DNA of 43,479 nt from Acidobacteriaceae bacterium. GTDB taxonomy: Bacteria > Acidobacteriota > Terriglobia > Terriglobales > Acidobacteriaceae. The translations under genes were made by a program, and so were the position numbers. The notes beneath the pieces are model-generated. The model saw only the letters and a list, made by a program, of their open reading frames with translations. It was not told the DNA's origin and searched no databases. How positions within the stretch are numbered: position 1 is the stretch's first letter; each line of letters starts with the position of its first letter. Where the stretch lies: assembly GCA_003140235.1 (NCBI GenBank), contig PLJN01000051.1:1-43479 (forward strand), written 5' to 3'. Below, one piece after another: positions 769 to 10,814 of this stretch.

Positions 769-2715
769 TCAGTTCGGCTTTACCGCGGCCTTGGAATCCG
801 TCCGCTGCAGTACGGTTTGCGCCTCGTCACCGGCCTGGACGGTCGCGAAAAACGCCCGGAGTTGATCGTAGATTTTCACGTCGAACAAGGCTCCCGACAG
901 CAGCAGCATGCGTTTCATGTTGATCTGGTTCCCAGTGACTTCGCTGACCCTTCTGTAGTTGCCAACATCTGTCGCTATCTGCTGGCGTTCCGGCGAACTC
1001 TCGAGGACATATCCGGGCGGCAGAGTGATTGTGATTTCATCCCATTCCACAAACGCGTAAGGAAAGTAAACTGGATATTTTCTGACAGAATGCTTGAAAG
1101 CTTCCTTCTGCCGGGTCTGGAAGAGGTAGTCAGTCACCAGTATCCGTTTACCAGCGATGGAAGCGTATGCCGGAACTTCAATATCAAAATTCGCTATGAG
1201 CGGAGCATCCTGCTGGTCCCAGCCTTGCGAACTGATGGCCTTTACCGTTGCGTTGGGCGGCAGCCAGCGCTTCATTTCTTCTTCCATATCGTGGTTGCGG
1301 CCTGCTTCGTCGGTGCTCACTGTCGCCAGACGATGTTCCAGTGCCTCGCCGCCTTCGAACTTTACGATCACGTTTCCTTTCACGCTGCCGTCTTCAGCCA
1401 GCGTGAGATGAGCGGTCCTCCAGGTCATCGCCTTGTCGGCGCCGGAGCCCGGCACAACAATGAAGCTGCCACCGCCCTTGTACAGTTTCGCTGCCGTGGT
1501 ACCGGCAATCGTCCAGCGGAGCGTGCCATAGGGACAGAACCTTGTTCCCGGATCGAGGTAAAGGTCCTTGTGGTCAACCTGCACCACGGTCAGTACGGAA
1601 TCAAGCTGGCTGCCGTCCAGCAAGCCCTTCTGAAAGAAACGCTCTTTCCGGCTTGCGGCGACCACGATGTCCGCCTGAAATCCTTGTGCGCGCGCCATGG
1701 CTACGAAAAAAGCCGAAATGCCGTTATGGAAACCGTAGCCATGCTTGAGAACGTCAACCACATCTTTTGACGGTTTGAGATCTTCTTTCTTTCTCTCGGA
1801 CTCAGTGCGCTCCCGTTCGTACCCCAGATTCCTGATCTGTTGCGCACGTGCGTAAAGCTTCCGCAGTTTCTCCTGGGAATCGGTAACGCCGCGGGTGGTT
1901 TCTTCCGCTGCGGCGCGAATCTCTTTATGGTCGCCAATGAACTCCTCAAAGTCCGTCGCCATTACGCGCATCTTTGTTGCCCAGAAAAAGTCCGGCAGGC
2001 CCATGTATCCGGTAAAAAAGTAGACCACCTGTTTGTAGATTTCCTCCGGCGGCATTTGCTCTTCCGCCTCAAACGCCGGGACGTTTTCCAGTTCCAAGTC
2101 AAAATTGTTCTTGTCCTTGGACGGCTGTTTGGGAATGGACTTGGAAACTACATACGTAACTGGAACAAATGTCGACGGACTGAGGTAACGGAAATGCTCG
2201 CGCACTGTAAACAGATTGTGCTGCACGTCCCAATGATTGCTGCGGAAGGCCCAGGCCTTGAGTTTGTATTTGTATTCAATGATGCTGCCAACTCCGGCTT
2301 CCGGCAGCGTGAGCGTCTGGGCCAATAACTTGAACCCTCTTCCCTTGATCAGGGTCTTCTCAAAGGGAGAGCCGGTAAAGGTGACAATGCTGCCATCCGG
2401 ACGAATCGTGCGGGCCTGCAAGTCGGTGAGCTTAACGCCTGGGAAGACAGGGATTTCAACGTCAGCATATTGCCGGCCGGCATCCGTCAGTAATTTGATG
2501 CGGCAATAAAAAAATTGCGCCTCCTCGTTTTGATCAACGTAAATATAGTGCGCGTAATAAAGCTGGATGGCCGGAGCATTGGGCGTCCCCGGCACTTCTT
2601 TGATCTGCAAATCCTGGGTCGTGACAGGCAGCCAATCCTCGCTGGGCGTGGCACCGTACGTGAAGAAACCGAGCCCCAGGATGACGACCAACAGTCTTAG
2701 ATATACGCTCTTCAT
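769..2715 (-). CDS. exported DUF3857/transglutaminase-fold protein, degenerate active site (array member A, nucleophile position His)
   Basis: 648 residues with a signal peptide (residues 1-22, hydrophobic LRLLVVILGLGFF). The order is a DUF3857-type beta domain (about 30-220), a helical stretch containing KLRKLYARAQQIRN (about 283-296), a transglutaminase-like core (about 315-400) and a C-terminal beta domain ending FFATVQAGDEAQ. Aligned to the intact neighbour at 2757-4715, the catalytic GDCKDKA becomes GFHNGIS, so His330 replaces Cys. The catalytic His aligns with Ser373. Asp388 in LDPG is kept. Cys394 in RFCPYG is shared with the other degenerate paralogs. Function is unknown; a non-catalytic envelope role is an inference. 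It lies 41 bases after the intact paralog, probably in the same transcript. Confidence 0.85.
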   Translation of the reverse strand: MKSVYLRLLVVILGLGFFTYGATPSEDWLPVTTQDLQIKEVPGTPNAPAIQLYYAHYIYVDQNEEAQFFYCRIKLLTDAGRQYADVEIPVFPGVKLTDLQARTIRPDGSIVTFTGSPFEKTLIKGRGFKLLAQTLTLPEAGVGSIIEYKYKLKAWAFRSNHWDVQHNLFTVREHFRYLSPSTFVPVTYVVSKSIPKQPSKDKNNFDLELENVPAFEAEEQMPPEEIYKQVVYFFTGYMGLPDFFWATKMRVMATDFEEFIGDHKEIRAAAEETTRGVTDSQEKLRKLYARAQQIRNLGYERERTESERKKEDLKPSKDVVDVLKHGYGFHNGISAFFVAMARAQGFQADIVVAASRKERFFQKGLLDGSQLDSVLTVVQVDHKDLYLDPGTRFCPYGTLRWTIAGTTAAKLYKGGGSFIVVPGSGADKAMTWRTAHLTLAEDGSVKGNVIVKFEGGEALEHRLATVSTDEAGRNHDMEEEMKRWLPPNATVKAISSQGWDQQDAPLIANFDIEVPAYASIAGKRILVTDYLFQTRQKEAFKHSVRKYPVYFPYAFVEWDEITITLPPGYVLESSPERQQIATDVGNYRRVSEVTGNQINMKRMLLLSGALFDVKIYDQLRAFFATVQAGDEAQTVLQRTDSKAAVKPN

Positions 2716-2756
2716 GGCCGAGGAAAATTTGGTCCAGCGAGCCGGCCGAACGCCGG

Positions 2757-4715
2757 CTAGTTGGCCCGTTTCAACACCGCAATGCTTTTTTCGTCCATGT
2801 TGATTTCACGGAAGAACCTGTTGAGCTCGCCAATTCTTTCCGCCGGAATGAGCGGCGAAGTGATTTTGTATTCCCGCGTATATTTCAGCACGTTCCCGGC
2901 ATTGGTGATCTTGCTGTTGTATTCACCAAAGGACAGGCTGGTCTTGGCGGGATCGGGCAACTCGTCTACCTTGTATCCTTCCGGCAGGCTGATTTCGAAA
3001 GAGTCGGTTTCCAGGGCAGGCGAGTCGAACTGGTACGCATAGCGACGGGGCTTGGTGGAGTCCAGCGCACCCATCTTCTCTCCCGTCACGCGCGGCCGCA
3101 CCAGCAGCAGAGGGCCTGCATTCTTCGCGTAGTGCTCCGCTGTGAACTGGTAATGAAGCACCAAGTCGCCCTCGATGTTGTCCACGTTCTGGGCGTCCAT
3201 GCTGTCGAGATGCAAGGCAGTCATCGAACCACCCAGGCTCTGTTCCAGGGCCTTCTTGCGATCACTCTCCGTCTGGTGGCTGTAGCGTGACCGGGCCTTG
3301 TAGGCTTCAGTGCCGGTCCGCACTTCTTCTACATCGCCCTTGAGGGTCCCGTCAGGAAGCAGGGTCAGTTTCGCGGTGCGGGTGACCCGGTTGGATTCCG
3401 GTTTGCTGATGGGCAGGTGAATCATTTCGCCGCCTTGTTCGGTGATCAGCAGCCCATAATTGTCCTGTTCGTAGAATGGCATCTGGCCAAACGGCACAAG
3501 ATCATTCGTGGGGTCAAAAATCAGGAGCCGGCCCAGTTTCGGGTGCTCGTAGACACCAGGCATCGGCTGGGACGAACTGGCTTCCGGCAATTGGATGGCA
3601 ATGATCATGTGATTAAACTGCGAAGAAGGCGGAGTATTTTCCGTGTAAACTCCGCGATCCGTGCGGACTAGCACCGAGTAGGACTTGACTCCGATCTGTG
3701 ACAGCATGGCACCCAGCATAGTGGCCTTGTCTTTGCAATCACCATAGCGATGACTAAACGTGTCTCCTGCCGAATGCGGACGGTACCCGCCGATCCCAAT
3801 CTGGATTTCGGCGTAACGAATATCGCGCTGGGCAAAGCGCGCCAGCGTCTTGATCCGCTCTAAAGGAGACATGCTGGCAGGCGCCAGCTCAACGACCTTC
3901 TGCTGCAGCGCGGCCGTAGGTTCACGAGTGCCTGCAGCCAACTGGTTGTACCAGAAACCGAAATCCTTCCACGATTTGTAAGTCTGGTTCTTGATTTTCT
4001 CAGAGAAAAAAGTCACGACCATGGAACCAGCCAGTGCATCTTCCGTCTGGCGATGGTATTCCGTTTCGATGCGCGGTATGTCGGACAGCTCCCAGGTATA
4101 AGCGCCATTCCGTTCAACCGGTTCATTGGCAGAATGGTGGATCCAATCCGCCCGATATTCCCAGCCCGGAGGCAGCCTTAATTCGTACCGTGTGTGCTCG
4201 ATCGGATACTCCCGCTGAAACGACCACTGGTCCTGAAAAATGTAAGGCCGCCCCTTATGCTCGTACTCAAAGCCGACGACCGTTCCCACATCAGCTCCGG
4301 GCACAATCAGGATCCGCTCTTTTACGTCGGAATACACTTCATACGTGGTGGCGCTGCGTTCGAAGGCGTCTTTGTCCTTCGCCTCGTACTCCTGGCCTTT
4401 CACCGTGATGCTCCAGCCCCGGAGATAGTTGATCTTCGTCTCGGCGTCAAAACCCAGGCCAAAGCCGGCAACGGTTTTGCCTTCAGGGCGCAGAATCCTG
4501 TAAGCAATCCGCCTCAGGGTGACAATCTCGCCGGTGTCCCTGATCGTGGTTTCCTGATCATCGAGAAGGACGACGGCATTTACATCGTCCGCATAGTGCT
4601 TTGCGGGCTGCTGGGCGGCGGCATGTAACCAGTCAGGAACGCCGGCCCTTGCGCCGGGGGACACCAGGACGATTGCCACCAGTAGAAAAATTGCGCTAAT
4701 TCCCTTTTTGAGCAT
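2757..4715 (-). CDS. exported DUF3857/transglutaminase-like protein with intact Cys-His-Asp triad (array member B)
   Basis: The only array member with a complete transglutaminase/papain-like triad: Cys327 in RYGDCKDKATML, His369 in FNHMIIAI and Asp401 in FDPTNDLVPFG. A signal peptide covers residues 1-24 (FLLVAIVLVSPGARAG), so it should work in the periplasm or outside. DUF3857 occupies the N-terminal half and a DUF3858-like beta domain the C-terminus. I start it at the ATG at 4713-4715 because GGAGG lies 8 bases upstream and the signal peptide begins there (652 residues). The frame stays open upstream to an ATG at 4823, which would add 36 non-signal residues and deepen the overlap with the preceding gene. 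Expected chemistry is amide cleavage or transfer; substrate unknown. It lacks the WLPVTxQD N-terminus of its four paralogs. Confidence 0.88.
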   Translation of the reverse strand: MLKKGISAIFLLVAIVLVSPGARAGVPDWLHAAAQQPAKHYADDVNAVVLLDDQETTIRDTGEIVTLRRIAYRILRPEGKTVAGFGLGFDAETKINYLRGWSITVKGQEYEAKDKDAFERSATTYEVYSDVKERILIVPGADVGTVVGFEYEHKGRPYIFQDQWSFQREYPIEHTRYELRLPPGWEYRADWIHHSANEPVERNGAYTWELSDIPRIETEYHRQTEDALAGSMVVTFFSEKIKNQTYKSWKDFGFWYNQLAAGTREPTAALQQKVVELAPASMSPLERIKTLARFAQRDIRYAEIQIGIGGYRPHSAGDTFSHRYGDCKDKATMLGAMLSQIGVKSYSVLVRTDRGVYTENTPPSSQFNHMIIAIQLPEASSSQPMPGVYEHPKLGRLLIFDPTNDLVPFGQMPFYEQDNYGLLITEQGGEMIHLPISKPESNRVTRTAKLTLLPDGTLKGDVEEVRTGTEAYKARSRYSHQTESDRKKALEQSLGGSMTALHLDSMDAQNVDNIEGDLVLHYQFTAEHYAKNAGPLLLVRPRVTGEKMGALDSTKPRRYAYQFDSPALETDSFEISLPEGYKVDELPDPAKTSLSFGEYNSKITNAGNVLKYTREYKITSPLIPAERIGELNRFFREINMDEKSIAVLKRAN

Positions 4716-6669
4716 TGACATTTCCTCCGACCCGCAAGACTGCCTGTTGTTCGTCTCCGGCCTGAACTTTGTTGAAAAAATCTTTAACTTCACTGTACTG
4801 ATTGGGATAAAACAGAATTCCATTGACCCGCAGGACCCGTTCCGTGACCAGTTCGGACCCGGTAAATTGCGCTGCGCTGCGATAGAGAGCGTAAGGCAGG
4901 GCGACAGACTGGGGTTGGGGTAGGTTTTCCATGGAGTAGCCTGCCGGGAGCTTGACGCTTATCCGGTCAATTTCCGCAAAAGCATACGGGAAATAAACTG
5001 GATACTTGCGCTGCGCGATCTTGAACGCGTCCTTTTGCTTCGCCTGAAAGAGAGCGGACGGCAGGAGCAGCCGTTTCCCGGCCACTGAGCCATAGTTAGT
5101 AACCGACAGGGTGAAGTGAGCAACCAGCGGATCGTCCGTGGATTCCCAACCCTGCGCATCCGTAATTTTGACGATGATGCCGTTCGGCAGCCAGCTCTTT
5201 AATTCGTCTTCAAGCTGCTTCTTGCGTCCCGCATCGTCGGTCTTGATTGCGTCCAACCGGTGCTCCAGGGCTTCACCGCCCTGATACTGCACGGTGCCGT
5301 CGCCAGTGATGGAGCCATCCTCAGACAGAACCGCTTTTACCGTCCGGGAGATAACTGCTTTGTCGTTCGCGGCCGGTGGCAGTTGGATGAAGGTTCCCCC
5401 CTTTTTGTCCAGCTTCAGAGCCGCCGTTGAGGTACGCATCCATCGGACCAGCCCAAAAGGGCAGAACCTGGTTCCGGGATCGAGATACAGGTCCTTACCG
5501 CCCACTTGCACGTCTGCAACCATGTAACTAAGCTGCCTTGCGGAAAGGAAGTTCTTCTCGAAAAACTGCTCCTGGCGGCTGGATACCAGCACGACGGCGG
5601 TATCGAACCCGGCCGCCCGGGCCATCGCCACGAAGAGAAGCGTGATGTCGTTTGCACTGCCAAATCCGCGATCCAGAACATCACCTGTATTCTGATTGGG
5701 CTTGAGCTGTTCCTTCTTTTGCTCCTGCTCATCGCGCTCGCGTTCGTAGGAAAGATTTCTGATCTGCTGGGCCCGGGCATAGAGCTTGCGGAGTTTCCGC
5801 TCCGGATCGGTTTCACCACCAATGGCGGCGGTCGCGGCATCGCGCACCGGCCCGCGATTGCCGATGAAACGCTCCACCAAATCATTGCGCGCGGTACCCA
5901 TGTCCTGCCAGAATCGCTCCGGCGACGCCAGTTCACCGCCACCGTAAAAGAACCGGACATGAGGTTTGTAGTTCTCCTCCGGCGGCATGGTTGCCTCGGA
6001 CTCGAAGGCGGGGACGTTCTCCATTTCCAGTTCGATCTGATTTCCCTTTTGCGTGGGCCTTTTCGTCAAATTTGAGCCTGCATAAGATACCTGAGTGCCG
6101 CCGCGCGTACCCTGCAGGCCGCCTTCGTAACCCCGGAATGTGAAATTTTCCTTCACCGTAAACAGTTCATGCTGAATGGTCCATTCGCCGTCGTAGATAG
6201 ACCCTTCAGGAGGTTCGATCCGATACTTGTACTCGACAATGCTGCCGACGGTGACTTCGGGCATGCTGAAAGTCTTGGCGAGAAACTTGAAACCCTTCCC
6301 TTTGATGATCGTCTTTTCAAAGGGCTTTCCGGTGAATTCAACAATGGTCCCGTCCGGATGAATGGTGCGCGCTTTCAGGTTATTCACCGAGAAGAATGGC
6401 AGTACAGGAATCTCCACATCCGCATACCCTCGAACGTCTTTGCCCGCTTCGGTGAGTATCTTAATGCGATTATAAAAAAACTGGGAGTGGTTGTTGTCGT
6501 CGATATAGTGCGCATAGTAGAGCTGGATTGCTTTTGCCCCAGGGACCCCAGGAACTTCCTTCACCTGCTGGTCTTGCTGGGTGACGGGCAGCCAGTCTTC
6601 TTTCTGTGCCAATGAAACGGAGGCAGACGCTAAACAGGCAAACCAAACCAAGTGACGAAGCTTCCGCAT
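4696..6669 (-). CDS. exported DUF3857/transglutaminase-fold protein, degenerate active site (array member C, nucleophile position Ala)
   Basis: 657 residues with a signal peptide ending near residue 21 (ACLASASVSLAQ). The mature N-terminus EDWLPVTQQDQQVKEVPG is shared with members A, D and E. The core shows RGFGSANDITLLF where the intact enzyme has RYGDCKDKATML, so Ala339 replaces the catalytic Cys. Tyr382 sits at the catalytic His position. Asp397 (LDPG) is retained and Cys403 (RFCPFG) is the alternative conserved Cys. GGGAG lies 6 bases before the ATG. Its 3' end overlaps the start of member B by 20 bases, which suggests coupled translation of a degenerate and an intact paralog. A 162-base gap precedes it, so a second promoter there is possible. 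Confidence 0.85.
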   Translation of the reverse strand: MRKLRHLVWFACLASASVSLAQKEDWLPVTQQDQQVKEVPGVPGAKAIQLYYAHYIDDNNHSQFFYNRIKILTEAGKDVRGYADVEIPVLPFFSVNNLKARTIHPDGTIVEFTGKPFEKTIIKGKGFKFLAKTFSMPEVTVGSIVEYKYRIEPPEGSIYDGEWTIQHELFTVKENFTFRGYEGGLQGTRGGTQVSYAGSNLTKRPTQKGNQIELEMENVPAFESEATMPPEENYKPHVRFFYGGGELASPERFWQDMGTARNDLVERFIGNRGPVRDAATAAIGGETDPERKLRKLYARAQQIRNLSYERERDEQEQKKEQLKPNQNTGDVLDRGFGSANDITLLFVAMARAAGFDTAVVLVSSRQEQFFEKNFLSARQLSYMVADVQVGGKDLYLDPGTRFCPFGLVRWMRTSTAALKLDKKGGTFIQLPPAANDKAVISRTVKAVLSEDGSITGDGTVQYQGGEALEHRLDAIKTDDAGRKKQLEDELKSWLPNGIIVKITDAQGWESTDDPLVAHFTLSVTNYGSVAGKRLLLPSALFQAKQKDAFKIAQRKYPVYFPYAFAEIDRISVKLPAGYSMENLPQPQSVALPYALYRSAAQFTGSELVTERVLRVNGILFYPNQYSEVKDFFNKVQAGDEQQAVLRVGGNVNAQKGN

Positions 6670-6831
6670 AAGGCGCTCCCGAGAGAAAATATGTGTTGCA
6701 GAGTGTGGTTACTATATACACCAAAGCGCCTGTATTAGCCAGTGTATTGGGCTGAATGGGCTCTGGACGAGGGCAGAAGGCGGTTCCCGCTATTGAGATG
6801 CGGCCTGGCCACGCGCCCTGACTCGATACTC

Positions 6832-8805
6832 CTACTCGTCTTTCGGTGGCATTTTGCTCTGCTCGAGGACAATCTGCTCCTCGTCCGCAATGCGAAGCTG
6901 ATCGAAGAAACTCTTCAGTTCCTTGTAGTCTTCGGCCCGAAAGTATATGGAATTCACGACCAAGGCGCGGGTCAACGTGGTCCGATTCTCTTGCAGCGTT
7001 CTTTGAGTCACGAAGCGTGAAGACGCCAGCTTCATATCCTGACCGTGAGGCAGTGTCTCCAAAGAGAAGCCTTGCTGAACTTGCAGGTCAAATCGATCAA
7101 TCTCTTCAAAGGTGTAAGGAAAATAAACCGGATACTTCCGCTCCGTGTACTCAAACGCCGCTCGTTGTCTGGTTTGGAAGAGTGCGGCCGGCACGAGCAT
7201 GCGTTTACCTATCTTTTTTGCGTAACCAGATATCTCAAACGTGAACTCGGCCCGGAGGGGAGCATCCGCCAACTCCCATCCTTCTGCTTCCTTCAATTTC
7301 AGGCTGGATGGCCGGACCTGCCACGGCCCCAGCTCTTCCTCCAAGGCCCGCAGTTTGCCTGCCTCATCCGTCTCAAGAACAGCAAGACGGAGCTGCAGAG
7401 CTGCCGCGCCGCTGAGTTCAAGGGCCACTTCACCGGTCAGCGAACCATCGTCCTGAAGAGTCGCCATGACCGACCGCCGGCTGACTGCCTTGTCCGCGGC
7501 GGGGGTTGGGACGACCACAAAGCTGCCGCCGTTCCTGGCCAGTTTAAGCGCTGGAGCGGACGTATGTATCCAATACACCAGCCCGAAAGGGCAGAATCTG
7601 GTCCCCGGATCAAGGAACATTTCCGCGCCATTCAGCTTTACCAGGACAAGCTCCATTCCGAGCTGGTCCTCAGAAAGGAACTTGTTGTCGAAGACGTAGT
7701 CTTTGCGGCTGGAAGCCCGCACGATCTCGCTCTCAAACCCAGCGGCGCGGGCCAGCGCGGCAAATAATCTGGCAATGTCGTTACCGGACCCGTAGCGATG
7801 CTCCAGCACTTCCACCACGGTCTTGTTCGGCTTGATGTCTTCAGCCTTCTCTTCCTCCGGCGTGCGCGCGCGCTCGAAACTCAGGTTCCTGATCTGCTGC
7901 GCGAACGCGTAGAGTTTCCGCAGCTTCTTTTCCGCATCCGTCTCACCCCCAATGGCCTTGATCATGGCCGCCTTGATCTGCGGATGACTGCCAATGGACC
8001 GCTCCACTTCGTCAAACCAGTCCTTGCCATGATCTTGCCAGAACGCATCGGGAGAGCTGACTTCGCGGCCTCCGTAAAAAAACCGAACTCGCATCCGAAA
8101 ATTGTCCGGCGGAGGCATGGATTCTTCAGCCTCGAACGCTGGGATTCCTTCGGCTTTCAGCTCCACCACCGAGCCATTGTCCGTTGGTTTTACGTCACTG
8201 GGCAGGTTGGAATAGACGTAAGAGAGTTGCGCCTCATCTTCAAAATGCTTCATGCCATTGAGCGTGCCGGTAAATGGCCTGATCCAGAATTCTTCACGGA
8301 CGGTGTACAAGTCGTGCTGCAGGTCCCAGGTCTTACCGACGATGTACGTGTCCCAGGTGTAGCGATACTTGTATTCAACAATGCTGCCGACAGTCACCTC
8401 CGGCAGCGCGAAGCTCTCGGTAAGGGACCTGGCGTCCCTCGTCTTGACAGCGATTTTTTCGAAGGGTTTGCCCGTGAACTCGATGATGCGCCCGTCAGGA
8501 TGAATCGTTCGGGCCTTCAGGTCAACAAAATGCGCGAAAGGCGGCAATGGGATCTCCACGTCGGCATAGCGCTGGCCTTTGCTGCTCAGGACTTTGATGC
8601 GGCGATAAACGAACTGGTACTGGCGGCTATCGTCCCGGAAATCGGCGTAGTAAAGCTGGATCGCTGGCGCACCCGGGTCTCCGGGCGCTTCCTTCACCTG
8701 CCAGTCCTGCGGGCTGATGGGGAGCCAGTCTTCTTTCTGGGCAAGACAGCAGGAACCGAAGGCGCACGCGAACAGAATCAATGAGCAGAGCCGTAGCTGG
8801 CGCAA
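6832..8805 (-). CDS. exported DUF3857/transglutaminase-fold protein, degenerate active site (array member D, nucleophile position Gly)
   Basis: 657 residues; signal peptide at residues 1-22 (LFACAFGSCCLAQ), then EDWLPISPQDWQVKEAPG. Domain order is as in the other long paralogs. The core motif is HRYGSGNDIARLF, so Gly341 occupies the catalytic Cys position. Met384 aligns with the catalytic His. Asp399 is kept in LDPG and Cys405 lies in RFCPFG. The conserved helix KLRKLYAFAQQIRNLSFERART spans about 295-314. It starts 5 bases after the stop of member E, so the two are almost certainly co-transcribed. The 162 bases to member C contain no gene. Enzymatic activity of the transglutaminase type is not expected. 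Confidence 0.85.
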   Translation of the reverse strand: MRQLRLCSLILFACAFGSCCLAQKEDWLPISPQDWQVKEAPGDPGAPAIQLYYADFRDDSRQYQFVYRRIKVLSSKGQRYADVEIPLPPFAHFVDLKARTIHPDGRIIEFTGKPFEKIAVKTRDARSLTESFALPEVTVGSIVEYKYRYTWDTYIVGKTWDLQHDLYTVREEFWIRPFTGTLNGMKHFEDEAQLSYVYSNLPSDVKPTDNGSVVELKAEGIPAFEAEESMPPPDNFRMRVRFFYGGREVSSPDAFWQDHGKDWFDEVERSIGSHPQIKAAMIKAIGGETDAEKKLRKLYAFAQQIRNLSFERARTPEEEKAEDIKPNKTVVEVLEHRYGSGNDIARLFAALARAAGFESEIVRASSRKDYVFDNKFLSEDQLGMELVLVKLNGAEMFLDPGTRFCPFGLVYWIHTSAPALKLARNGGSFVVVPTPAADKAVSRRSVMATLQDDGSLTGEVALELSGAAALQLRLAVLETDEAGKLRALEEELGPWQVRPSSLKLKEAEGWELADAPLRAEFTFEISGYAKKIGKRMLVPAALFQTRQRAAFEYTERKYPVYFPYTFEEIDRFDLQVQQGFSLETLPHGQDMKLASSRFVTQRTLQENRTTLTRALVVNSIYFRAEDYKELKSFFDQLRIADEEQIVLEQSKMPPKDE

Positions 8806-8810
8806 GGAGA

Positions 8811-10814
8811 CTACTGCTCCTTTTGCGCCGCGGCGGCCGCCGCGGACTGGAGCACCGCATGTTCTCCGTCGCCCGCCTGAACAATGGCAAAAAAATCCTT
8901 CAATTGCTGATACTCGCCCGTTTCAAATCGCATTCGATCCAAATGGAGAACGCGCTTGACTGTCAGCTCGTTGCCTTGCTGGGAACTCGCAATCTCATAG
9001 CCCGCGTAGGACAACCCCGCTTTGCGACGATAGGGGGCGACTTCCACGCTGTACCCTTCGGGCAGCGTAAGGGTGAACTCGTCTTGCTCAACAAAGGGAT
9101 AGGGCAGGACAATCGGATAGCGGCGCGATAGGGGCGTGAATGCACCCTGCTGGAACGGGGAGAAAAAGTAAGCCGGCGACAAGATACGCTTGCCCGTGAC
9201 AGCGGCAAAACCGGGGACCTCCACCGTGAAGCGGGCGATCAGGGGCTTTTCGGTTTCTTGCCAGCCCTCGGAGCTTTGCAACTTTGCCGTGCCGCCATGG
9301 GGAAGCCACGCCACTAGCTCGTCCTCCAGACTCTTACGACGCCCGGCCTCGTCTGTATCCAGGGCCTCGATGCGGCGCTCGAGCGATTCTTCCCCCGCCC
9401 ATTCCATAGTGATTTCACCTTTGGCTGAGCCATCGGGAGCCAGGGACATACGTGCCGTGCGGCGAACGGTGGGACTCGGAGGCGCCGGCGTTTTGACAAA
9501 GGCGGCTCCGGACTTGCTCAGGCGAAACGCGGTCGCCGACGTGTTCTTCCAGCGCAGCAGACCGTAAGGACAGTATTTGGTCCCGGGATCCAGCACCGTG
9601 TCCTTGCCGCCGGCATTCACCAGGACAGCTTCGTCGTCCACCTGTCCCAGCCACAGCAGCAATTCGCTGAAAGAACGCTGACTGCGCTCGGAAACGTGCA
9701 GGATAGATGCATCAAACCCGGCCCCGCGGGCCAGGGCCACGAACAGCCGGTCTATGTCATTGGAGGTACCATAGCCATGCTCGAGCACTTCGCGAACATT
9801 GGTGTTGTGCTTTAAGCCCTCCTTTTTCAGTTCCTCGGCGGTCCGGGCACGCTCAAAGGACAGATTTCTGATCTGCTGGGCGCGGACATAGAGCTTGCGT
9901 AATTTCTTTTCTGAATCACTCTCGTTCCGTGTGAGGTCGGCCGCCAGGCTCCGAATTTCGCCGTAGTCACCGACAAACTTGTCCAGGTATTCCGCAAACA
10001 GCCTCCGCCACTCCTGCCAGAAAAGTTCGGGGGAAGCCGTTTCCCGGCCTCCGTAATAGAAAACAATTACCGGCTTATAGTCGGCCTCCGGAGGCATAAG
10101 CGCCTCCCCATCGAAAGCGGGAACGTTTTCCAGTTCCAATTCCATCAGATTGCCCGCCTTCTTCTGCGGGACCCTGGGGTCCGATTGGTGAAGGTATGAG
10201 TAGGCAACCCGCGACCTGGGCGCCTCGGTACCCCACTCCGTGGGAACAATGACCAAGCCCTGGTAGGGCCTGAAGCGCAGGTTCTCCTTCACCGTGAACA
10301 GCTCGCTCTGGACCGGCCACTCAGAGATGGGGTCCACAAGCCGCCTAGGCAGTTCGACGGTATACATGTACTCGACGATGCTTCCCACGGTTACGTCCGG
10401 CATCGTAAACGTCTTGGCCAGATACTTGATTCCCCGGCCTTTGATGATGGTCTTCTCGAAAGGCTTGCCTTGAAAATCGACGATGCTCCCATCCGGATGA
10501 AGGGTGCGCGCCATCAACTGCTTCAACGATTGGCCGGGTTCGATTTCAATCGCAATATCTGCGTATTTTTTTCCGGCGTCGCGCAGGACCTTGATCCGCT
10601 TGTACACGGAAATAAAGTTGTCGTTGTCATCCTTATAGTAGCGCAGGTAGAGCTGGATGGCCGGGGCCCCGGGATTGTAAGGGACTTCCTTGATGGCCCA
10701 ATCCTGCTGCGTTACAGGAAGCCAGCCCTGCGCTTGCTTTTGGTCAGGGACAGCCAGACAGACGGAAGGCAAGTAGAAGCACAAAAAGACTAAAAGACGG
10801 CGGCGCATCTTCAC
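8811..10814 (-). CDS. exported DUF3857/transglutaminase-fold protein, degenerate active site (array member E, nucleophile position Ser)
   Basis: 667 residues and the first gene of the array in transcription order. The signal peptide is residues 1-21 (LLVFLCFYLPSVCLA), followed by GWLPVTQQDWAIKEVP. The core HGYGTSNDIDRLF places Ser351 at the Cys position. Asp394 aligns with the catalytic His. Asp409 is retained and Cys415 sits in KYCPYG. Ser could in principle act as a nucleophile, but without the His this is unlikely. The C-terminus ends in an Ala-rich tail (AAAAAAQKEQ) absent from the paralogs. GAGGTGAAG stands just before the ATG as the ribosome binding site. The 113-base gap upstream is AT-rich and is the most likely place for the array promoter, although I could not define one. 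Confidence 0.85.
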   Translation of the reverse strand: MKMRRRLLVFLCFYLPSVCLAVPDQKQAQGWLPVTQQDWAIKEVPYNPGAPAIQLYLRYYKDDNDNFISVYKRIKVLRDAGKKYADIAIEIEPGQSLKQLMARTLHPDGSIVDFQGKPFEKTIIKGRGIKYLAKTFTMPDVTVGSIVEYMYTVELPRRLVDPISEWPVQSELFTVKENLRFRPYQGLVIVPTEWGTEAPRSRVAYSYLHQSDPRVPQKKAGNLMELELENVPAFDGEALMPPEADYKPVIVFYYGGRETASPELFWQEWRRLFAEYLDKFVGDYGEIRSLAADLTRNESDSEKKLRKLYVRAQQIRNLSFERARTAEELKKEGLKHNTNVREVLEHGYGTSNDIDRLFVALARGAGFDASILHVSERSQRSFSELLLWLGQVDDEAVLVNAGGKDTVLDPGTKYCPYGLLRWKNTSATAFRLSKSGAAFVKTPAPPSPTVRRTARMSLAPDGSAKGEITMEWAGEESLERRIEALDTDEAGRRKSLEDELVAWLPHGGTAKLQSSEGWQETEKPLIARFTVEVPGFAAVTGKRILSPAYFFSPFQQGAFTPLSRRYPIVLPYPFVEQDEFTLTLPEGYSVEVAPYRRKAGLSYAGYEIASSQQGNELTVKRVLHLDRMRFETGEYQQLKDFFAIVQAGDGEHAVLQSAAAAAAQKEQ

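Follow-up and report, generated by a model that had tools for sequence, protein, structure and literature searches.

Why a bacterium would keep four intact proteins of the transglutaminase-like fold that lack the catalytic cysteine beside a single relative with a complete Cys-His-Asp triad is the question raised by a five-gene array from an Acidobacteriaceae bacterium (assembly GCA_003140235.1, contig PLJN01000051.1). The array lies at positions 769 to 10,814 of the 43,479-nucleotide stretch of this contig that was analysed, referred to here as the window, and encodes five proteins with DUF3857 domains, P1 to P5. An initial annotation made from the DNA sequence had described them as five exported tandem paralogues, one of them intact and four degenerate, and had suggested that the degenerate members are selected for a non-catalytic role. 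Here, the Cys-less kind is termed PSE and the triad-bearing kind ACT. PSE and ACT are two old subfamilies with a strict division of the catalytic residues, and they are genetically linked across much of the phylum Acidobacteriota. With moderate confidence, we favor the reading in which PSE has a dedicated role as a non-catalytic partner to ACT, and the window's genus has an expanded set of such partners.

All five open reading frames of the array are intact and contain zero internal stops, in agreement with the initial annotation. An alignment of 224 proteins, described below, bore out the assignment of the triad to P2 as the single triad-bearing member, the replacement of the His in the other four proteins and their retention of the Asp, while the nucleophile replacements and the coordinates of their codons proved exact (Table 1). 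The genes are transcribed in the order P5-P4-P3-P2-P1, with successive spacings of 5 nt, 162 nt, a 20-nt overlap and 41 nt, and the P2 frame stays open upstream of its ATG, to 4823. A scan for separate transcription gave 2 promoter candidates, compared to a mean of 4.3 in shuffled sequence, and 11 terminators, compared to 13.4. All five N-termini contain a hydrophobic stretch that, judged by eye, resembles a signal sequence, and the proteins are probably exported. An artefact of chance or of open reading frame calling was ruled out by the checked frames, domains and codons together with conservation; chance in particular is excluded because relatives conserve the features of the five proteins.

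Table 1. Genes of the DUF3857 array and the codons at their triad sites, listed in order of transcription
Feature	Position in window	Strand	Details
P5, PSE (Cys-less) DUF3857/transglutaminase-fold protein	8811-10814	minus	GTG start, 667 aa; transcribed first; Ser351/Asp394/Asp409 at triad sites
Ser351 codon TCC, nucleophile site of P5	9762-9764	minus	alignment and codon check
P4, PSE protein	6832-8805	minus	TTG start, 657 aa; Gly341/Met384/Asp399 at triad sites; nearest relative in genome G001
Gly341 codon GGT, nucleophile site of P4	7783-7785	minus	alignment and codon check
P3, PSE protein	4696-6669	minus	ATG start, 657 aa; directly upstream of P2, 20-nt overlap; Ala339/Tyr382/Asp397 at triad sites
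Ala339 codon GCA, nucleophile site of P3	5653-5655	minus	alignment and codon check
P2, ACT (triad-bearing) protein	2757-4715	minus	ATG start, 652 aa; Cys327/His369/Asp401
Cys327 codon TGC of P2	3735-3737	minus	Cys in 87/87 ACT rows covering site
His369 codon CAC of P2	3609-3611	minus	His in 88/88 ACT rows covering site
Asp401 codon GAC of P2	3513-3515	minus	Asp in 89/89 ACT rows covering site
P1, PSE protein	769-2715	minus	ATG start, 648 aa; transcribed last; His330/Ser373/Asp388 at triad sites
His330 codon CAT, nucleophile site of P1	1726-1728	minus	alignment and codon check

The description of the array as five tandem, exported-looking relatives stands, but that of five equal paralogues does not, as the four Cys-less proteins form a separate subfamily. 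P1 is 51% identical to P3, 46% to P5 and 43% to P4, and P1, P3, P4 and P5 are each only 21-24% identical to P2. A tree of 116 rows, with proteobacterial ACT as the root, places the 40 acidobacterial ACT rows on one side of a branch with a support of 64; the 66 PSE rows require two changes, with two Bacteroidota PSE rows falling among them. In a 37-row tree, two PSE from Persicobacter and 17 acidobacterial PSE rows form one group (support 97, starred); a single clade for all 20 PSE rows, including a relative of the structure 3KD4, is not rejected (p-AU 0.27), nor is it established. The placement of the Bacteroidota proteins in these trees is unsure because of their long branches. Within the PSE subfamily, the array members of the window's genus group between species as P5, P4, P3 and P1 types. 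P5-type counterparts with Ser at the nucleophile site are found in genomes G004, G005 and G008, as well as at locus L059 of G002, which is outside the tree, and the P1 clade contains rows of G001, G004 and G008, each encoded downstream of ACT. Separately, a contig titled Gammaproteobacteria (L120) bears a typical acidobacterial PSE-ACT pair, reflecting either mis-binning or transfer.

Residue counts were taken from a single alignment of 224 proteins (91 ACT and 133 PSE, fragments included), using only rows that cover the site in question and after removal of L073, a member of another family. The triad is invariant in ACT (Table 1), while among PSE rows the nucleophile site is Cys in 0/129, the second site is His in 9/128 and the third is Asp in 113/130. 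At the nucleophile site, PSE proteins carry 17 other residues, the commonest being Gly (31), Ser (23) and Arg (22). Because profile scores were used to assign the PSE and ACT labels, the labels depend in part on these site columns, although the score gaps usually far exceed the contribution of those columns. At 16 further loci, which were picked for a seemingly missing, partial or diverged partner and kept apart from the main counts, Cys is present in 12 of 13 ACT-labelled rows and in 0/16 PSE-labelled rows. The exception, L181 (2-1501, 5'-truncated), received the ACT label by 3 bits yet reads Asn-His-Asp in the manner of Asn-type PSE, and is outside the main tally. The motif YGDCKDK is nearly fixed in ACT and variable in PSE, and PSE has nearly fixed positions of its own (Trp254, Glu225, Lys70 and Arg554). 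Others are specific to PSE, including Trp410, present in 124/133 PSE rows and variable in ACT, Asn305, present in 114 PSE rows where 88 ACT rows have Tyr, Arg101, where ACT has Trp, and Arg365.

The initial annotation had also stated that the fold is retained despite the lost residues, and both domain searches and predicted structures are consistent with this. At an E value of 0.1, Pfam models for DUF3857 and Transglut_core match all five proteins and DUF3858 matches all except P2, several of these matches being below the curated cut-off. For DUF3857 (PF12969, cut-off 24.6 bits), the scores are 74.2 for P2, 37.2 for P4, 34.2 for P3 and 33.9 for P5, while P1 scored 23.3 in one run, just under the cut-off, and 26.1 in another. 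For Transglut_core (PF01841, cut-off 23), P1 (30.3), P4 (26.4) and P3 (23.7) pass, and P5 (22.8) and P2 (16.3) fail; automatic annotation is thus inverted here, because this model accepts three of the four proteins that lack the Cys and misses the one with the triad. AlphaFold2 models were made for P2 (mean predicted local distance difference test, pLDDT, 89.2; predicted template modelling score, pTM, 0.85) and P3 (mean pLDDT 90.9, pTM 0.86), with the equivalence of the triad sites taken from the alignment and secondary structure. In these models, the nucleophile site opens the corresponding helix (Cys327 of 327-340 in P2, Ala339 of 339-352 in P3), the strand of the His site begins at His369 or Tyr382, and the Asp lies after the next strand, at 401 or 397. 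For both models, the top Foldseek match in the PDB is 3KD4 (E 1.1e-30 for P2 and 4.4e-27 for P3), with moderate TM-scores (query/target 0.61/0.77 for P2 and 0.49/0.60 for P3). Foldseek also matched both models to the oligosaccharyltransferase subunit ribophorin I/OST1 (E 1e-7 to 1e-9) and, more weakly, to M1 aminopeptidases, in each case with a low TM-score. PADLOC models for anti-phage defence gave 0 matches for the five window proteins.

As far as can be judged from sequence, P2 is predicted to be catalytically competent based on its Cys-His-Asp triad, and P1, P3, P4 and P5 fit the description of pseudoenzymes, as they appear to have kept the fold and lost the catalytic residues, with no alternative triad in their place. 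The opposing view, in which PSE proteins are catalytically active and other residues supply the nucleophile or base, could draw on the frequent retention of the Asp, on one PSE row that reads Ser-His-Asp (L070) and seven that read Asn-His-Asp, and on a Cys six residues past the kept Asp (Cys394 in P1, Cys403 in P3, Cys405 in P4 and Cys415 in P5) that is found in 63/133 PSE rows. We give this view very little credence, given how rarely the His column holds a His, the lack of any invariant or near-invariant His column in 4-row and 24-row PSE alignments, and the presence of Ala, Ser, Gly or Asp at the site in proteins related to that of L070. This Cys past the Asp was itself considered as a relocated nucleophile and ruled out, since about half of the PSE rows are without it and it is not paired with a conserved His. 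Among the Cys-less proteins of the 224-row alignment, no other set of residues is conserved as a triad, and a triad rebuilt from other residues, which would have contradicted the initial annotation, is not the general pattern. The seven Asn-His-Asp rows come from the Cys-less proteins of a divergently transcribed group (L127, L128, L151, L153 and L156) and may represent an intermediate of degeneration or a special function.

The same Cys invites another explanation, in which PSE is an inhibitor or redox clamp that holds ACT until a signal arrives, possibly by way of this Cys (Cys403 in P3) together with Cys327 of ACT. The distribution of cysteines in the window lends this some appeal, since outside the signal-like N-termini it is the sole Cys of P3, P4 and P5, and Cys327 is the single Cys of P2. 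However, P1 carries a second Cys, the PSE rows without a Cys in this column include groups that retain the pairing with ACT, and no flanking family that might supply a release factor extends beyond 10 loci. We therefore regard a redox clamp as distinctly improbable, despite the recurrence of the Cys in 63 rows.

Searches of relatives and of a phylum sample yielded 115 loci with a scoring protein, or 104 after the removal of 11 duplicates. PSE and ACT occur together in 88/104 of these loci, with a nearest gap of <=120 nt in 87 and of 966 nt in one (L143); the scripts took the most upstream start of each gene, so that any overlap between genes is a maximum value. PSE precedes ACT in 65 of the 88 loci and follows it in 12 (L129-L134, L136-L140 and L161, which belong to related genomes within the window's family), 6 contain both kinds of junction, with ACT between PSE genes or the reverse, and in the 5 loci of the group noted above the genes are divergent. 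By our reading, the other 16 loci comprise nine cut by contig ends (L055, L056, L059, L060, L065, L069, L145, L154 and L158), the L073 locus of another family, and six with a solitary PSE gene. In a comparison of 103 loci, no family of flanking genes is common to more than 10, over 7 kb or as far as the available sequence extended. The linkage has outlived changes of order and orientation, because three arrangements keep the pair while the flanking families are barely shared. By the same comparison, there is no conserved neighborhood that would name a substrate. A natural PSE-ACT fusion was considered for frames of 1237-1282 aa at L123, L152 and L155; these overlap the coordinates of the neighboring gene and were read as artefacts of the most-upstream start, and no other fusion was sought. 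Most loci have one PSE and one ACT, so the composition of one active and several inactive members described by the initial annotation holds for the window but is a local elaboration.

The frequency of this pairing also bears on the possibility that PSE proteins are stand-alone binders of a class of substrate, such as a peptide, cell-wall fragment or glycan, that act in the same pathway as ACT without contacting it. Conserved domains and fold, the existence of solitary PSE genes, and the presence of several diverged PSE in one array, as would be expected if their ligands differ, are all compatible with such binders. Yet pairing with ACT is more frequent than a shared pathway requires, and the nucleophile and His sites vary freely, indicating that the old cleft is under no visible constraint. 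We consider stand-alone binding unlikely, albeit the most serious competitor of a dedicated partnership with ACT.

Several observations were made on the surroundings of these genes and on related genes elsewhere in the genome. A methylmalonyl-CoA mutase gene is located at 3-701 of the window, downstream of the array, and the flanking family that includes the mutase, identified by reading, is found in 8 loci of the window's genus. This mutase and a TolC-like gene recur only within that genus (by reading, with Pfam run on three window neighbors). Contig 111 of the same genome encodes a sixth relative, solitary and with Arg in place of the Cys (L003 46-2049; L072 2125-4128), which adjoins a gene that by eye resembles a Ycf48/BNR-type propeller; relatives occur in three other genomes of the genus, with no adjacent ACT in the stretches read. 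Contig 149 (L001, L073) encodes a 1391-aa triad-bearing DUF3857 protein with a tail that by eye resembles TPR repeats, and matches resembling it recur in relatives as frames of 1000-1400 aa that seem to be a separate family.

Co-occurrence was assessed by genome in two samples, both consisting of related genomes, so that association statistics (Fisher) are descriptive. In a table of 61 genomes, with cut-offs of ~275 bits for PSE and ~370 bits for ACT, reading of the table found both in 29, PSE only in 1 (G032, with a partial ACT match), ACT only in 1 (G028, at a contig end) and neither in 30. Among 297 genomes of the phylum, searched with the PSE profile at 1e-50 and the ACT profile at 1e-75, 72 have a PSE match and 67 an ACT match, with both in 63, PSE only in 9, ACT only in 4 and neither in 221. 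The PSE profile weakly matches ACT as well (up to ~4e-61 in this search), and G301 and G313, with matches no better than that, were inspected. Four of the nine PSE-only genomes have a diverged ACT adjoining the PSE gene (G072, G074, G201 and G283), three reflect contig-end cuts (G075, G229 and G301), and G313 has a PSE fragment only; the ninth, G194, is considered below. Among the four ACT-only genomes, G249 and G140 have an adjoining PSE, G221 has its ACT at the end of a 5.5-kb contig, and the match in G131 is a different protein, a 1117-aa frame that was taken as another DUF3857 family.

The pair also extends beyond Acidobacteriota. P2 matches 25 plasmid records, six of which were read, comprising four from Bacteroidota among the 20 matches listed and two from Proteobacteria, and the pair is present in three of the four Bacteroidota records read. 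In the Parabacteroides distasonis record, ACT (RCGVCKD, FNH, LDPT) is directly followed by a 527-aa DUF3858 protein that carries Pro in place of the nucleophile and whose match to 3KD4 spans its length. In two Persicobacter plasmids, the gene after ACT encodes another DUF3857 protein, in which the nucleophile is replaced by Asn or Ser and the His by Asp or Asn; one of the two ACT (L165) has Glu at the Asp site. A search of plasmid records with P3 found no plasmid copies of PSE.

To gauge selection, the ratio of non-synonymous to synonymous substitution (dN/dS) was estimated with a simple pairwise Nei-Gojobori count, the figures being drawn from the closest pairs. At dS < 0.75, five PSE pairs (four from the g46 set and one P3-type pair of the window's genus) have ratios of 0.11-0.16 and seven ACT pairs have ratios of 0.05-0.15; more distant ACT pairs reach 0.26. 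The closest PSE pairs are thus under purifying selection. This bears directly on the idea that the degenerate copies are decaying duplicates on the way to loss, to which frame-broken PSE in 3/104 loci and a locus with only a PSE fragment (L173, outside the 104-locus set) might testify. Intact Cys-less frames are nevertheless found phylum-wide and group with the two Persicobacter members, and the ratios of the closest pairs are well under 1. For the family as a whole, decay is refuted and we assign it practically no probability, although it could hold for single copies. Random decay of inactive copies, which would have spoken against the initial annotation, is hence the exception, and the selection for a non-catalytic role that it suggested is well supported by the intact frames across the phylum, the closest-pair ratios and the linkage in three orders.

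Of the two genes, it is preferentially PSE that has multiplied. At least two long PSE accompany each ACT at 16 loci (the window, L057, L062, L063, L068, L070, L074, L094, L096, L116 and L124-L129), and L175, from the further set, is another two-PSE case. Two ACT with one PSE are found at one locus, L066, where one ACT is cut by the contig end. The sixteen loci were assigned to seven lineages by the tree or, for L125 and L129, which are outside the tree, by genome group, and a sign test for PSE multiplication gives p 0.0003 by locus.

Based on these data, we propose that PSE would serve as a dedicated non-catalytic partner of ACT. ACT would belong to the transglutaminase-like superfamily as a cysteine hydrolase or acyl-transferase and would act as a hetero-oligomer with PSE. 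Within such a complex, PSE, having retained its fold and surfaces and lost its chemistry, may stabilize, gate or aim ACT, by analogy with the prozymes and Clp R subunits discussed below. That Cys-less sisters are kept intact by selection beside ACT suggests that they are working partners rather than debris. In the window's genus, PSE would have been duplicated into up to four diverged partners per single ACT, and one catalytic subunit would combine with differing recognition subunits; such an expansion of PSE alongside one ACT is in keeping with adaptors that can be interchanged. A more far-reaching version holds that, across Acidobacteriota and at least three Bacteroidota strains, an exported ACT functions solely, or for the most part, in a heteromer with a dead sister that predates the diversification of the phylum, and that in several lineages this sister has multiplied into a cassette of alternative specificities for one catalytic subunit. 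We find this version conceivable but doubtful.

A number of observations weigh against a dedicated partnership. Co-transcription could account for the linkage without contact between the proteins, and since Cys is a rare residue, its absence from 129 rows does not alone amount to selection against it. A dN/dS of up to 0.62 is seen in more distant PSE pairs (among the closest 14 of 66 pairs), and the sign test for multiplication gives only p 0.07 by lineage. The frame-broken PSE genes (L039, L042 and L045), set beside 0 broken ACT away from contig ends, imply that some PSE copies are dispensable. PSE genes also occur alone, four of them being of the contig-111 type in the genus g1 (L064, L067, L071 and L072, with L067 on a 4.5-kb contig) in addition to L113 and L144, and G194 has a PSE with no ACT across the 12 kb read. 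Conversely, Aureibacter has a Cys-His-Asp protein with no adjacent PSE, and a PSE-like stretch related to the Persicobacter PSE is ~16 kb away from this ACT (NZ_AP025306.1 358629-359168, L163 region), while in the two plasmid records from Proteobacteria no PSE was found next to the ACT-like genes.

How a dedicated PSE-ACT partnership would compare to known systems can be approached through 3KD4 (BDI_1141 of P. distasonis ATCC 8503), which we take to be the structure behind DUF3857/DUF3858. It aligns with the PSE pattern, with Pro at the nucleophile site, and a protein matching it over its full length is encoded directly after a triad-bearing ACT gene in another strain of the species, as described above. 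It differs from the proteins of the window in being from Bacteroidota, where PSE lies after ACT in that pair, and it is 16% identical to P2. Its deposited title is "putative protease" even though the nucleophile is missing, and a solved structure of a dead member is therefore filed as a protease. Enzymes with Transglut_core (PF01841), such as TgpA of Pseudomonas and the BTLCP/LapG peptidases, belong to the same catalytic-domain superfamily, the Cys-His-Asp of which is kept by P2. The architectures of TgpA and the BTLCP/LapG peptidases differ from those of DUF3857 proteins, for which we know of no reaction or substrate. In the literature covered, which leaves out most subscription journals and is represented in part by excerpts, we found no description of a PSE-ACT-type pair under DUF3857, DUF3858, 3KD4 or transglutaminase-like pseudoenzymes. 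Within the same coverage, DUF3857 appeared only as the name of a gene upstream of lolA in Xanthomonas, DUF3858 did not appear, and the only relevant mention of 3KD4 concerned its match to the fold of vasohibins. A 2023 survey of papain-like families (PMC10318531) likewise names neither DUF3857 nor its Pfam numbers in the available main text. Proteins of transglutaminase- or papain-like fold without catalytic residues are described there, namely protein 4.2 (EPB42), menin, Rad4/XPC and FBXO21. These differ from PSE in being eukaryotic, and the passages of the survey available to us describe no conserved pair or array of them with a live sister.

The pair nonetheless belongs to a known kind, that of an enzyme with its pseudoenzyme, and is conserved far beyond a single window. 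In trypanosomatids, S-adenosylmethionine decarboxylase (AdoMetDC) with its prozyme and deoxyhypusine synthase are cases in which, according to the portions of the reports available, a dead paralogue activates a live one through a hetero-oligomer (PMC5201418, PMC6221367, PMC3663545). We propose the prozymes as a working likeness of PSE, bearing in mind that the prozyme families are unrelated and eukaryotic and that complex formation and activation are established there, whereas for PSE they are proposed. Like a prozyme, PSE is linked to and co-occurs with a paralogue that is presumably live. The second likeness, ClpP/ClpR, is a ClpP-type serine protease ring that is intracellular and ATP-dependent and has a fold unrelated to PSE and ACT. 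The chloroplast ClpP/ClpR core, as portrayed in the sections available of PMC6508832, contains catalytic P and non-catalytic R1-4 subunits together. It would thereby resemble the proposed ACT-PSE complex, as one core that mixes catalytic and non-catalytic subunits. These citable enzyme/pseudoenzyme pairs are eukaryotic or organellar, while PSE-ACT is bacterial and has persisted in much of a phylum even as the gene order changed. Treating the pair, and not the single protein, offers a way to assign a function to DUF3857/DUF3858, and the repeated multiplication of PSE provides a testable case for pseudoenzymes that diversify the specificity of one catalyst.

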